DNA from: Flavobacteriaceae bacterium
GTDB taxonomy: Bacteria; Bacteroidota; Bacteroidia; Flavobacteriales; Flavobacteriaceae
Assembly (NCBI GenBank): GCA_022565635.1
Contig: JAIUMH010000016.1
Coordinates: forward strand, 1-33,174
DNA: 33,174 nucleotides
Direction: 5' to 3'
Positions 4,876 to 27,683 of the stretch are shown in pieces (position 1 is the stretch's first letter; each line of letters starts with the position of its first letter). The translations under genes were made by a program, and so were the position numbers. The notes beneath the pieces are model-generated. The model saw nothing but the letters and a program-made list of their open reading frames with translations. It did no database searches and was not told where the DNA came from.

Positions 4876-6126
4876 ATGGAATTAAAGCGAGTAGTAGTCA
4901 CAGGTTTAGGGGCGCTTACGCCCATAGGTAATAATTTGAAAGAATATTGGGAAGGTCTTTCCGCTGGAAAAAGTGGATCTGCCCCAATTACCTATTACAA
5001 TACTGAAAAGTTTAAAACTAAATTTGCTTGTGAACTCAAAAACTTTGACGCTAAAGATTACTTTGACAGAAAAGAAGCAAGACGCTTAGATAAATTTACC
5101 CAATATGCTATGATAGCTTCAGACGAAGCTATCATAGACTCGGGTTTAGATCTGGAAAAAGTAGATAAATCTAGAGTTGGAGTAATTTGGGGCGCAGGTA
5201 TTGGAGGCTTAGAAACTTTTCAAGAAGAAGTAATTAACTATGCCAAGGGTGACGGCACTCCTAGGTTTAACCCTTTTTTTATTCCTAAAATGATTGCTGA
5301 TATTGCACCTGGTCATATTTCCATTAAACATGGATTTATGGGGCCTAACTACACTACTGTGTCGGCTTGTGCTTCTTCAGCAAATGCATTAATTGATTCG
5401 CTTAATTACATAAGACTTGGTCATAGTGACGTTATTGTTACCGGTGGTAGTGAAGCGGCTGTAACAGAAGCAGGAATGGGTGGGTTTAATGCAATGCATG
5501 CGTTATCTACTAGAAATGATTCTCCTGAAACGGCTTCAAGACCTTTTGATGGAACCCGAGATGGATTTGTTCTTGGGGAAGGAGCTGGATCATTAATTCT
5601 AGAAGAATACGAACACGCCAAAGCAAGAGGCGCTAAAATCTATGCTGAGGTAATTGGCGGAGGTTTGTCAGCTGATGCTTATCACATGACAGCACCACAT
5701 CCAGAAGGATTAGGTGTGATAGCTGTGATGAATAATTGTCTTAAAAATGCTGGAATTCAACCTGAGGAAGTAGACGCAATTAATACGCATGGTACTTCTA
5801 CTCCCCTAGGTGATGTAGCTGAACTGAAGGCAATTAAAAAGGTTTTTGGTGACCATGCCAAAAACATTAATATTAATTCTACTAAGTCAATGACTGGTCA
5901 TTTACTTGGAGCGGCTGGCGCCATAGAAGCTATTGCTTCTATCTTAGCTATGGAAAATAGCTTAGTGCCTCCTACTATTAACCATACTACACCAGATGAA
6001 AACATTGATCCAGAGCTTAACCTTACGTTGAATAAGGCTCAAAAAAGAGAAATTAAAGTCGCTATAAGTAATACCTTTGGCTTTGGAGGCCACAATGCTT
6101 GTGTTGCTTTTAGAAAGCTTGACTAA
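4876..6126 (+). CDS. fabF: 3-oxoacyl-[acyl-carrier-protein] synthase II
   Basis: Elongating condensing enzyme of type II fatty acid synthesis, joining malonyl-ACP to acyl-ACP. The thiolase-fold protein (416 residues, normal) has the Cys-His-His triad: Cys165 in TVSACASSANA, His305 in NTHGTSTPLGD and His342 in STKSMTGHLLGAAG, with Lys337. The C-terminal NTFGFGGHNA glycine-rich segment is present. It follows acpP by 15 nt and precedes rnc by 9 nt, so the three genes are almost certainly one operon. Confidence 0.97.
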   Translation: MELKRVVVTGLGALTPIGNNLKEYWEGLSAGKSGSAPITYYNTEKFKTKFACELKNFDAKDYFDRKEARRLDKFTQYAMIASDEAIIDSGLDLEKVDKSRVGVIWGAGIGGLETFQEEVINYAKGDGTPRFNPFFIPKMIADIAPGHISIKHGFMGPNYTTVSACASSANALIDSLNYIRLGHSDVIVTGGSEAAVTEAGMGGFNAMHALSTRNDSPETASRPFDGTRDGFVLGEGAGSLILEEYEHAKARGAKIYAEVIGGGLSADAYHMTAPHPEGLGVIAVMNNCLKNAGIQPEEVDAINTHGTSTPLGDVAELKAIKKVFGDHAKNININSTKSMTGHLLGAAGAIEAIASILAMENSLVPPTINHTTPDENIDPELNLTLNKAQKREIKVAISNTFGFGGHNACVAFRKLD

Positions 6127-19714: not shown

Positions 19715-19802
19715 AGAGAGGTGGCCGAGTGGTCGAAGGCGCACGCCTGGAAAGTGTGTATACGTCAAAAGCGTATCGAGGGTTCGAATCCCTTCCTCTC
19801 TG
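19715..19802 (+). tRNA. tRNA-Ser(GGA)
   Basis: An 88-nt class II tRNA. Acceptor AGAGAGG (19715-19721) pairs with CCTCTCT (19795-19801), with discriminator G. The D arm is GCC...GGC. The anticodon stem is CACGC/GTGTG (one G-T pair) with loop CTGGAAA; anticodon GGA at 19749-19751 reads UCC/UCU. A long variable arm (TATACG...CGTAT) and T arm GAGGG-TTCGAAT-CCCTT follow. The CCA end is not encoded. The first acceptor pair is A-T, where serine tRNAs more often have G-C. No terminator is seen before exbB. Confidence 0.95.
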
Positions 19803-25321: not shown

Positions 25322-26764
25322 TTAGAACGAAGCGTTTTGTGGTGTTCTAGGGTAAGGAATTACATCCCTTATATTCCCCATTCCGGTAGCAAACAAAACC
25401 AACCTTTCAAAACCAAGTCCAAAACCACTATGCTTGCAGGTTCCAAACTTTCTGGTTTCTAAATACCACCAAAGTTCTTCGGGGTCTATAGATAAATTTT
25501 TCATTTTTTCAAGCAAAACGTCATAGCGTTCCTCACGTTGAGAACCGCCAACCATTTCACCAATTCCCGGAAATAGTACATCCATGGCGCGTACTGTTTT
25601 ACCGTCTTCGTTAAGACGCATGTAAAAAGCTTTTATAGAGGCCGGGTAATCAAATAAAATAACTGGACATTTAAAATGTTTTTCAACTAAATAACGCTCA
25701 TGTTCACTTTGTAAATCTGCTCCCCATTCTTCAATTAAATACTGAAATTTTTTCTTTTTATTGGGTTTTGAATTTTTTAAAATATCAATGGCTTCTGTAT
25801 AACTTACACGTTTAAAGTTGTTTTTGATAACAAAATCCAATTTTTCACGCAGTGGCATTGGAGAACGTTGGTCTTTAGGTTTCGTTTTTTCTTCATCCAA
25901 CAAACGGTTTTCTAAAAACGCTAAATCTGCTGCACAGTGATCTACAATATAACCAAGTACATATTTAATAAATTCTTCAGCCAAATCCATATTGCCGTCT
26001 AATTCACAAAAAGCCATCTCTGGTTCAATCATCCAAAACTCGGCTAAATGTCTGGATGTATTAGAATTTTCTGCTCTAAACGTTGGACCAAAAGTATACA
26101 CATCACTAAGGCCTAAAGCAAAGGTTTCTGCTTCTAATTGACCACTCACTGTTAAGTTGGTTTCTTTGCCAAAAAAATCCTGACTAAAATCAACTTCACC
26201 ATGTTTATTTGTAGGGATGTTTTTTAAGTCAAAGTTTGTCACTTTAAAAGTCTCTCCTGCACCTTCAGCATCAGAGCCTGTAATGATAGGAGTATGTACG
26301 TAGTTGAATCCTTTTTCCTGAAAAAACTTATGAACGGCAAAAGATAATTTTGAGCGTAGACGCATAACAGCACCAAAAGTATTTGTGCGCACTCTTAAAT
26401 GAGCTTGCTCTCTTAACTTTTCTAGCGAATGCTTTTTTGGAGAAAGAATAGTTTTCCTTACTTCTTCAGGATCAGCTTTACCTAATACCTGAATTTCATT
26501 TATTTTTATTTCTACACGTTGGCCGCGCCCTTGACTCTCTTGAAGTGTGCCTTTAATTTCAAGCGCTGCTCCAATATTAATTTCTTTTAAAATTTCCTCT
26601 TCCGTATTTTCAAAATCTAAAACACATTGAAGATTTTTTAAGCAAGATCCATCATTTAAGGCAATAAATTGATTGTTTCTAAATGATTTTACCCATCCAT
26701 ACACAACAAAATCTTTGAGTAAATCTTTACTTTCTAGTACTTCAATAATCTTTTTCCTGATCAT
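25322..26764 (-). CDS. asnS: Asparaginyl-tRNA synthetase
   Basis: Class IIb synthetase that charges tRNA-Asn. The 480-residue protein has an N-terminal OB-fold anticodon-binding domain (about 15-100, FVVYGWVKSFRNNQFIALNDGS). Class II catalytic motifs follow: motif 2 FRAENSNTSRHLAEFWMIEPE and motif 3 GFGLGFERLVLFATGMGNIRD. The asparaginyl-specific C-terminus ends PYPRTPQNASF. Length is normal. A full promoter with a 19-nt spacer lies upstream. asnS and ansA (asparaginase) in one window is probably coincidence. Confidence 0.96.
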   Translation of the reverse strand: MIRKKIIEVLESKDLLKDFVVYGWVKSFRNNQFIALNDGSCLKNLQCVLDFENTEEEILKEINIGAALEIKGTLQESQGRGQRVEIKINEIQVLGKADPEEVRKTILSPKKHSLEKLREQAHLRVRTNTFGAVMRLRSKLSFAVHKFFQEKGFNYVHTPIITGSDAEGAGETFKVTNFDLKNIPTNKHGEVDFSQDFFGKETNLTVSGQLEAETFALGLSDVYTFGPTFRAENSNTSRHLAEFWMIEPEMAFCELDGNMDLAEEFIKYVLGYIVDHCAADLAFLENRLLDEEKTKPKDQRSPMPLREKLDFVIKNNFKRVSYTEAIDILKNSKPNKKKKFQYLIEEWGADLQSEHERYLVEKHFKCPVILFDYPASIKAFYMRLNEDGKTVRAMDVLFPGIGEMVGGSQREERYDVLLEKMKNLSIDPEELWWYLETRKFGTCKHSGFGLGFERLVLFATGMGNIRDVIPYPRTPQNASF

Positions 26765-26935: not shown

Positions 26936-26955
26936 TATACCCATTAAGGGGTATA
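26936..26955 (+). other. Palindrome TATACCC-N6-GGGTATA in the asnS-hemJ gap
   Basis: Perfect 7-bp arms (26936-26942 and 26949-26955) with a 6-nt loop, followed by TTTT. It is the first of three GGGGTAT-bearing sites (26948, 26984, 27023) and could be an operator or a short hairpin. Confidence 0.4.
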
Positions 26956-26976
26956 TTTTTAGTTGTACAAGCTTTG

Positions 26977-27082
26977 TATTTTTGGGGTATCTTCTTATTT
27001 AAATTTTCAAGTGAGTTTTATAGGGGTATATTTATCTCACTTGTATTATCTCTTAAAAGCCTAGTTTTGCTAGGCTTTTTTG
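26977..27082 (+). ncRNA. Candidate small RNA upstream of hemJ
   Basis: TATTTTTG (26977-26984) is an exact -7 box. About 25 nt further lies an 8-bp hairpin CAAGTGAG/CTCACTTG (27008-27015 and 27036-27043), then the terminator at 27055-27081. No open frame of useful length lies between. Initiation near 26990 would give an RNA of about 90 nt. The neighbouring gene asnS runs the other way and there is no plus-strand gene upstream for almost 4 kb, so the terminator otherwise has nothing to end. No -33 box is clear and I match no known RNA family. Confidence 0.35.
27055..27081 (+). terminator. Orphan intrinsic terminator in the asnS-hemJ gap
   Basis: AAAAGCCTAG (27055-27064) pairs with CTAGGCTTTT (27070-27079), then TT. 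A strong hairpin terminator with no annotated plus-strand gene before it. Confidence 0.85.
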
Positions 27083-27104
27083 TTAGATATAGCTCAATTA
27101 TTGA

Positions 27105-27133
27105 TTTGAATTCAATCAAATACATTACTTTTG
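27105..27133 (+). promoter_or_regulatory. Promoter of hemJ, with an overlapping palindrome
   Basis: TTTG (27105-27108), 17 nt, TACTTTTG (27126-27133), an exact -7 box 16 nt before ATG. The -33 region lies in a near-palindrome TTGATTTGAATTCAATCAA (27101-27119), a possible regulator site. Confidence 0.6.
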
Positions 27134-27149
27134 AATAAAAACTTACAAC

Positions 27150-27683
27150 ATGAGTTACTTGTACATCAAATCCTTACACCTCATTTTTGTAATTACTTGG
27201 TTTGCAGGTTTGTTTTATATTCCTCGGCTTTTTATTTACCATATTGAGGCCTTAGAAAAGCCAAGCAATCAGCGTGATCCTGTGGTGAAACAACTTAAAC
27301 TTATGGCCAACCGATTGTGGTTTATTATCACTTGGCCCTCGGCAATTTTAGCCACACTATTTGCTGTATGGTTACTTGTTTTAAATCCGGGTTGGCTTCA
27401 AGCGGGCTGGATGCATTTTAAACTAGGATTTGTTGTTTTGTTGTTTTTGTATCACTTCAAAAATCATCAAATTTATAAGCAGTTTCAGAGAGATGAAATT
27501 AAGTGGACTTCCAATCAAATGCGGATTTGGAATGAAGGGGCTACAATTATTCTCTTTGCGGTTGTATTTTTAGTCATTACAAAATCCACTGAACATTGGA
27601 TTTATGGTACTTTTGGTTTAATAGGTTTAGCTGTGCTTTTAATGCTTGGCATAAAACTTTATAAGCGGATTAGAAAAGAGTAA
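27150..27683 (+). CDS. hemJ: HemJ/CopD-family membrane protein, probable protoporphyrinogen oxidase
   Basis: A 177-residue membrane protein with four or five spans. It matches the HemJ (UPF0093) pattern: KSLHLIFVITWFAGLFYIPRLFIYH near the start (conserved His10), WMHFKLGFVVLLFLYH in the middle (Lys91) and RIWNEGATIILFAVVFLVI late (Asn128, Glu129). HemJ oxidises protoporphyrinogen IX, the penultimate step of haem synthesis, in bacteria lacking HemG or HemY. No other haem gene is in the window. Followed 37 nt later by the kinase gene. Confidence 0.82.
   Translation: MSYLYIKSLHLIFVITWFAGLFYIPRLFIYHIEALEKPSNQRDPVVKQLKLMANRLWFIITWPSAILATLFAVWLLVLNPGWLQAGWMHFKLGFVVLLFLYHFKNHQIYKQFQRDEIKWTSNQMRIWNEGATIILFAVVFLVITKSTEHWIYGTFGLIGLAVLLMLGIKLYKRIRKE

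Follow-up and report, generated by a model that had tools for sequence, protein, structure and literature searches.

In the 385-bp gap between asnS and hemJ of a Flavobacteriaceae genome, sequence comparison points to an unannotated small RNA at about positions 26989–27081, with its own promoter and terminator, as the best reading. A conserved RNA structure, a conserved promoter architecture and apparent independence from the neighbouring genes all argue for this reading, and we hold with high confidence that the element is a small RNA gene. Less expected were the recurrence of its promoter type and the link of that promoter to one kinase–regulator pair: the promoter signal appears to recur across Bacteroidota, often beside genes for NarL-family regulators, and probably serves to switch the small RNA on. 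Coordinates refer to the window, the whole 33,174-nucleotide stretch that we analysed, which is all of contig C16 of genome G000 (3.04 Mb in 248 contigs).

A predicted transcription unit between asnS and hemJ

An earlier note made from this DNA had named a palindrome, a −7 box, a hairpin, a terminator and three copies of GGGGTAT in the gap, and every one of these features was recovered at the positions given here. The unit stands between asnS (25322–26764, minus strand), its divergent neighbour, and hemJ (27150–27683, plus strand), its downstream neighbour, both of which lie outside it. The palindrome TATACCCATTAAGGGGTATA (26936–26955) contains a strandless 7-2-7 inverted repeat, TACCCAT-TA-AGGGGTA (26938–26953), which we propose as the site of a NarL-family regulator. 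A 23-nt spacer (26954–26976, plus strand), variable in sequence and constant in length in the six genomes that carry the unit, separates the repeat from a sigmaA −7 box, TATTTTTG (26977–26984, plus strand), which has the form TAnnTTTG in all six. A study of a flavobacterium places the sigmaA −7 box at −12 to −5 (PMC9723704); from the position of the box the RNA is thus predicted to start at 26989, with the centre of the palindrome at about −43.5. No −33 element was seen by eye at its usual place.

The predicted RNA (26989–27081, plus strand), which covariance models and pair counts support, is 93 nt long. Its first hairpin (27008–27043, plus strand) has an 8-bp stem, CAAGTGAG/CTCACTTG, with compensatory changes in relatives, and presents a loop 9-mer, TAGGGGTAT (27021–27029, plus strand), that includes the third GGGGTAT and is identical in 6/6 carriers. 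An intrinsic terminator of hairpin and T run, AAAAGCCTAG-TTTTG-CTAGGCTTTT followed by Ts (27055–27081, plus strand), closes the unit; it is near-symmetrical, so that minus-strand transcripts could also stop there.

The GGGGTAT copies, starting at 26948, 26984 and 27023, account for all plus-strand occurrences in the 33-kb window, which has one further copy on the minus strand. Neither three copies of GGGGTAT nor TACCC-N6-GGGTA arose in any of 2,000 dinucleotide shuffles of the 385-bp gap. The plus-strand RNA folds below 200 of 200 shuffles (z −4.3 for 26985–27085, z −5.7 for 27000–27085), and the opposite strand also folds below all 200 (z −6.9); because both strands fold better than shuffles, fold energy is silent on strand. 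A generic terminator scan of a 5-kb region gave no excess (4 sites versus 3.0, sd 1.7, in shuffles); it flagged the palindrome and missed the hairpin at 27055, whose T run lies partly within the stem. The generic sigma70 scan, for its part, contains no model of Bacteroidota promoters. A search against Rfam 15 found no family at its curated cut-off at the small RNA, the sole match at cut-off within the window being a tRNA gene (19715–19802).

Compensatory changes preserve the predicted RNA structure in six genomes

A DNA search of 100 genomes (G000 and 99 relatives) gave long matches beyond the window only in G018 and G002; G012, G009 and G007 were added by inspecting the sequence behind related palindromes and at pattern-scan loci. 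Of the 27 genomes in the genus, taken to be Psychroflexus, six thus have the unit, the window's own among them. Stem 1 pairs CAAGTGAG with CTCACTTG in G000, G018 and G002 (with one G–U pair in G018) and GAATAAG with CTTATTC in G012, G009 and G007, a set of compensatory changes around a loop, UAGGGGUAU, that is unchanged in all six. The terminator helix is likewise conserved with compensatory changes, and G007 has terminator changes of its own. In an alignment of the six genomes fitted to the model, 8 of 18 pairs are altered on both sides and 97.2% of 108 alignment cells are paired, counts that lean towards the structure to which the alignment was fitted and that reflect few independent changes; the changes in helix 1 may be a single event. 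Sliding the partners by one to three columns lowered the paired cells to 28–62%. The covariation score and three further measures, four of five in all, were reached by none of 500 shuffles; the fifth, which counts further pair types, was reached by 444 of 500.

A covariance model built from the first three genomes, R1 (G000, G018 and G002), scores G012, G009 and G007 at E values of 3e-7 to 3e-4. A second model, R2, built from all six carriers and thus expected to score them highly, gives them E values of 1.9e-11 to 1.7e-10; among the remaining genus genomes (27 in all) the best value is 4.2e-4. Across the family, where 12 candidates were scored per genome under stricter filters, R2 matched 217 of 397 genomes at E ≤0.05, all weakly except G000, and nothing besides G000 scored better than 1.7e-5. 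We considered a wider spread of the small RNA and rejected it: the 21 weak R2 loci examined (the 12 best of the family and nine from the genus) are non-members, in which the palindrome is absent (at most 7/10 fixed bases), no box stands at 23 nt and at most a terminator is common. When seven other loci were searched against Rfam, the single match, to AbsR28 in L013 (25.9 bits), fell below threshold.

The earlier proposal, a short RNA some 90 nt in length that has a promoter and a terminator, thus gains support from conservation in six genomes with compensatory changes, and also from a promoter type that is common to unrelated loci. Where relatives keep the gene order, fully in G002 and by half in G018, the loop copy of GGGGTAT persists together with the palindrome and the two hairpins, as would be expected of such an RNA, and the middle copy is not retained.

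A 7-2-7 site 22–23 nt before a −7 box recurs across Bacteroidota

All six carriers have TACCC-N6-GGGTA, then exactly 23 nt, then TAnnTTTG. We compared the half-sites with TACYYMT, the consensus heptamer of Escherichia coli NarL and NarP as given in PMC4886647: both heptamers fit in two carriers (G000 and G018) and the left one only in the other four. When palindromes were collected without any promoter condition, TAnnTTTR stood at 23 nt in 7 of 12 sites from other genera, and in the genus 9 of 13 had it at exactly 23 nt, or 11 of 13 if 22 is allowed. No other offset from 1 to 60 had more than one palindrome–box pair, save 22 in the genus; box matches at offset 0 arise from the flank TATTTTTA. 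The exact palindrome alone showed no enrichment in the family (12 of 397 genomes versus 13 with a reversed control word). Site and box together, at up to one mismatch, occur at 23 places in 11 of the 27 genomes of the genus; the reversed word was present in five genomes. In G000 the one match to site and box is at the small RNA itself.

A pattern scan of a collection of species genomes returned at least 119 stretches; among the 80 loci listed, 74 are from Bacteroidota by title and six are not. Because the pattern itself contains the box and the spacing, the independent evidence lies in the columns outside it, and among the 76 Bacteroidota sites listed these columns are non-random: A precedes the site in 67, T follows it in 73 and a purine fills box position 8 in 71. 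Spacing in these listed sites is 23 in 54 and 22 in 22; both heptamers fit TACYYMT in 17 and at least one does in 56. We regard control of the small RNA by a NarL-type site as likely.

A kinase–regulator pair as candidate activator

A NarL-family profile matched 18 proteins in 17 of the 80 listed site loci (596 kb) and none in 79 control loci, which were shorter (236 kb), came from unrelated matches and were mostly from Flavobacteriaceae. In nine of the 80 listed loci the regulator frame shares the strand of the site and ends no more than 250 nt ahead of it, although these nine include close relatives and are not nine independent cases. Half of the site-locus regulators (9/18) are 44–50% identical over their length to one regulator of G000, encoded on contig C72, which has Response_reg and GerE domains and is preceded by a gene for a TPR histidine kinase with HisKA_3/HATPase domains. 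Among five G000 regulators and NarL, with three weaker GerE matches of G000 left out of the comparison, the C72 regulator was the best match for 13 of the 18 (one a tie).

The kinase–regulator pair is present in 6/6 carriers, with regulators 78, 78, 55, 44 and 44% identical to that of C72, and also in G020, a genome in which the search gave no clear match to the small RNA. On a contig of G020 (C61; L376 positions 1777, 2109 and 2184) three palindromes, two with 10/10 fixed bases and one with nine, precede a lipoprotein-like gene, the kinase and the C72-like regulator, an arrangement that hints at autoregulation. In G012 one palindrome with nine fixed bases stands before the kinase–regulator operon; palindromes were absent from five of the seven regulator neighbourhoods examined.

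These patterns make the C72 regulator a candidate activator of the small RNA, and we lean towards a C72-type system in that role. The best-surviving alternative accepts the small RNA as real and takes the palindrome to be a repressor site, or one bound by a regulator other than C72. G000 has eight GerE-domain matches, some site-adjacent regulators are distant from C72 (those in L131, L163 and L174), and four of the six carriers meet the heptamer consensus in one half only, all of which would suit another regulator; however, a constant 23-nt spacing without a −33 element suits an activator, and the best-match result above favours C72 over the other regulators compared. We consider this alternative unlikely, though it is the most serious one.

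The unit appears to behave as a gene of its own

In G000 and G002 the small RNA unit is flanked by asnS and hemJ. In G018 it stands between hemJ and a gene with AAA and ChlI domains, which we take to be RadA-like, with asnS 28 kb away; in G009 and G012 it is between asnS and an MMPL-family exporter; and in G007 it is beside an MMPL-family exporter at a contig end, asnS being on another contig. In all, hemJ adjoins the unit in three of six carriers and asnS in four. These arrangements, in which the promoter spacing stays constant while the neighbours change, speak against the earlier suggestion that hemJ or asnS has its operator sites in the repeats. For the same reason it seems improbable that the small RNA is the leader of hemJ or an operator of asnS. 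The broader reading, in which either gene has a regulatory site or leader here and there is no separate RNA function, can appeal to the position between both genes in G000 and G002, yet a terminator stands between the element and hemJ, the unit occurs without adjacent hemJ in G009, G012 and G007 and without adjacent asnS in G018 and G007, and compensatory changes keep the RNA structure; we judge it very improbable. The small RNA unit instead appears to behave as a gene of its own.

Least probable of all is that the stretch is a short coding region, as a 54-codon TTG ORF spanning the element (26974–27138) might suggest, or a mobile repeat, as related palindromes at contig ends in G018 and G002 might, since stem changes preserve pairing while start codon and frame are not kept across carriers (loop and linker lengths differ, and the GTG of the hairpin is missing in G007, G009 and G012), the contig-end copies are the same promoter before a different RNA, and each carrier genome has a single clear-scoring copy of the element itself.

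The comparison also dissolved the single repeat set that the earlier note had seen in the three GGGGTAT copies, since conservation does not extend to the middle copy and the outer ones lie in different parts of the unit. The first is half of the inverted repeat and thus an operator half-site. The middle one (26984–26990, plus strand) overlaps the −7 box and the start region and is probably a chance occurrence, the corresponding position reading GAATCAT, GATGTAT, GGGTATT, GGTGTTA and GACATTA in the other five genomes. The third belongs to the RNA loop. That this last copy is a regulator half-site within the RNA gene is less likely, as the loop 9-mer lies 36, 36, 36, 19, 18 and 28 nt behind the −7 box in the six carriers and its place in the hairpin is constant.

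Possible targets of the loop

In the six genomes the complement of the loop, ATACCCCTA, has 32 distinct non-self sites, of which four stand no more than 40 nt ahead of the start of an ORF; for a reversed-word control the count is 1 of 66 (one-sided Fisher p 0.038, for a measure picked after viewing the matches). No gene near the loop-complement matches was common between genomes among the six. The four matches, 8–39 nt before an ORF start, are in L383 (G018), L392 and L401 (both G002) and L388 (G000), each near position 1501 on the matched strand, and, judged by eye, three or more of the four encoded proteins look secreted. Pairing of the loop with mRNAs is a tentative proposal.

Other putative transcription units behind the same promoter type

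Proteins with signal-peptide-like starts are numerous downstream of the listed sites, and by eye several units appear to stop at a hairpin and T run that precede any ORF (L106, L166 and L167; L113 and L136; L125; L172). In three of these, from Nonlabens and Flavobacteria bacterium BBFL7 (L106, L166 and L167), the 7-2-7 site comes after a gene for a C72-like regulator; next stands an RNA-like stretch that holds AGGGGGAAG and a terminator hairpin, and then a gene whose product starts MKVLKY. In L113 (Flavihumibacter) and L136 (Ferruginibacter) a near-identical stretch of about 60 nt behind the site holds a G+C-rich hairpin and a T run and no ORF.

A second RNA-like unit has the same promoter in L042 (70–240), L040 (18–190), L041 and L039 (minus strand). 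Three copies are in G018 and one is in G002; they have terminators and a 13-codon ORF, with an ATA start in G002, and they lie at or near contig ends beside a repeated stretch.

Two loci resemble the window RNA in their loop. A hairpin with a GGGGU-containing loop stands directly behind the site in L128 (Mesonia aquimarina, 5141–5220), where R1 gives 27 bits and E 0.0039, and by eye another follows the site on the minus strand of L127 (Aequorivita viscosa), a locus not listed by R1; both are possibly distant relatives of the window RNA. Genes for outer-membrane beta-barrel proteins (PF13568) also lie close behind the site in three genus genomes (L022, 1501–2200; L052, 1501–2202; L044, 934–1666), with site–box spacings of 23, 22 and 22.

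Proposed mechanism

We infer that the stretch is transcribed and that its regulator activates rather than represses it. A NarL/FixJ-family regulator, probably that of C72, would bind the 7-2-7 site centred near −43.5 and recruit RNA polymerase to a sigmaA promoter that has TAnnTTTG and no −33 element. The RNA would begin near 26989, present the invariant loop UAGGGGUAU on its hairpin and stop at the terminator near 27081. Action in trans is the likeliest mode, in which the G-rich loop may pair with C-rich stretches close to start codons and so lower translation. Taken as a whole, this path from a C72-type regulator to a trans-acting small RNA seems to us probable, its pairing step less so.

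A larger picture would be a regulon that extends across Bacteroidota, in which a NarL-family system with a TPR kinase acts at a 7-2-7 site 22–23 nt before TAnnTTTG and has several unrelated small RNAs as direct targets beside secreted and outer-membrane proteins; in G000, where the one match to site and box at up to one mismatch is at the small RNA, much of its output could be post-transcriptional, the G-rich loop silencing C-rich start regions. We offer this as a speculation that may well prove too broad.

To our knowledge, the regulatory RNAs of Bacteroidota and their activators have been little studied outside Bacteroides and one fish pathogen. The gain here is a family of small RNAs that covariation supports, together with a two-component system as a candidate partner. 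The promoter signature can be searched for in any Bacteroidota genome, where it predicts more small RNAs, as well as genes for secreted proteins, that share this control, and a pathway from signal to RNA becomes testable.

Comparison with known systems

Searches of the open-licence literature gave no match to the motif sequence, and by title and abstract neither the RNA nor the site is described there in work on NarL-type motifs of Bacteroidetes, on flavobacterial or Psychroflexus small RNAs, or on LuxR-family regulators with inverted repeats. The best sub-threshold Rfam match is STnc390 (RF02056), at 26.8 bits over 27024–27087; membership was rejected, as this is an enterobacterial family with a cut-off of 50 bits and the aligned part is mainly the terminator.

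A close counterpart by description, among other small RNAs of Flavobacterium psychrophilum, is Rfp18, which its report presents as a Flavobacteriaceae small RNA with a strong predicted structure and a proposed stem-loop pairing with mRNA (PMC9723704). Rfp18 is described there as conserved in Flavobacterium, whereas the window RNA was found only in six genomes of the Psychroflexus group.

The proposed regulator site has its nearest parallel in E. coli. It differs in belonging to another phylum, in its Bacteroidota −7 box, in the TPR-repeat kinase that takes the place of NarX or NarQ and in having a small RNA as its product, and the nitrate response of E. coli NarL and NarP is not implied for it. 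Like the NarL/NarP sites described in PMC4886647, it consists of inverted TACYYMT heptamers 2 bp apart. According to PMC7419079, NarL activation at yeaR-yoaG needs no more than one 7-2-7 site, placed immediately upstream of the −35 element, and an ogt derivative is active from a single site at −44.5, no longer linked to nitrate; the site in the window similarly abuts its promoter, and its predicted centre of about −43.5 is close to that of ogt.
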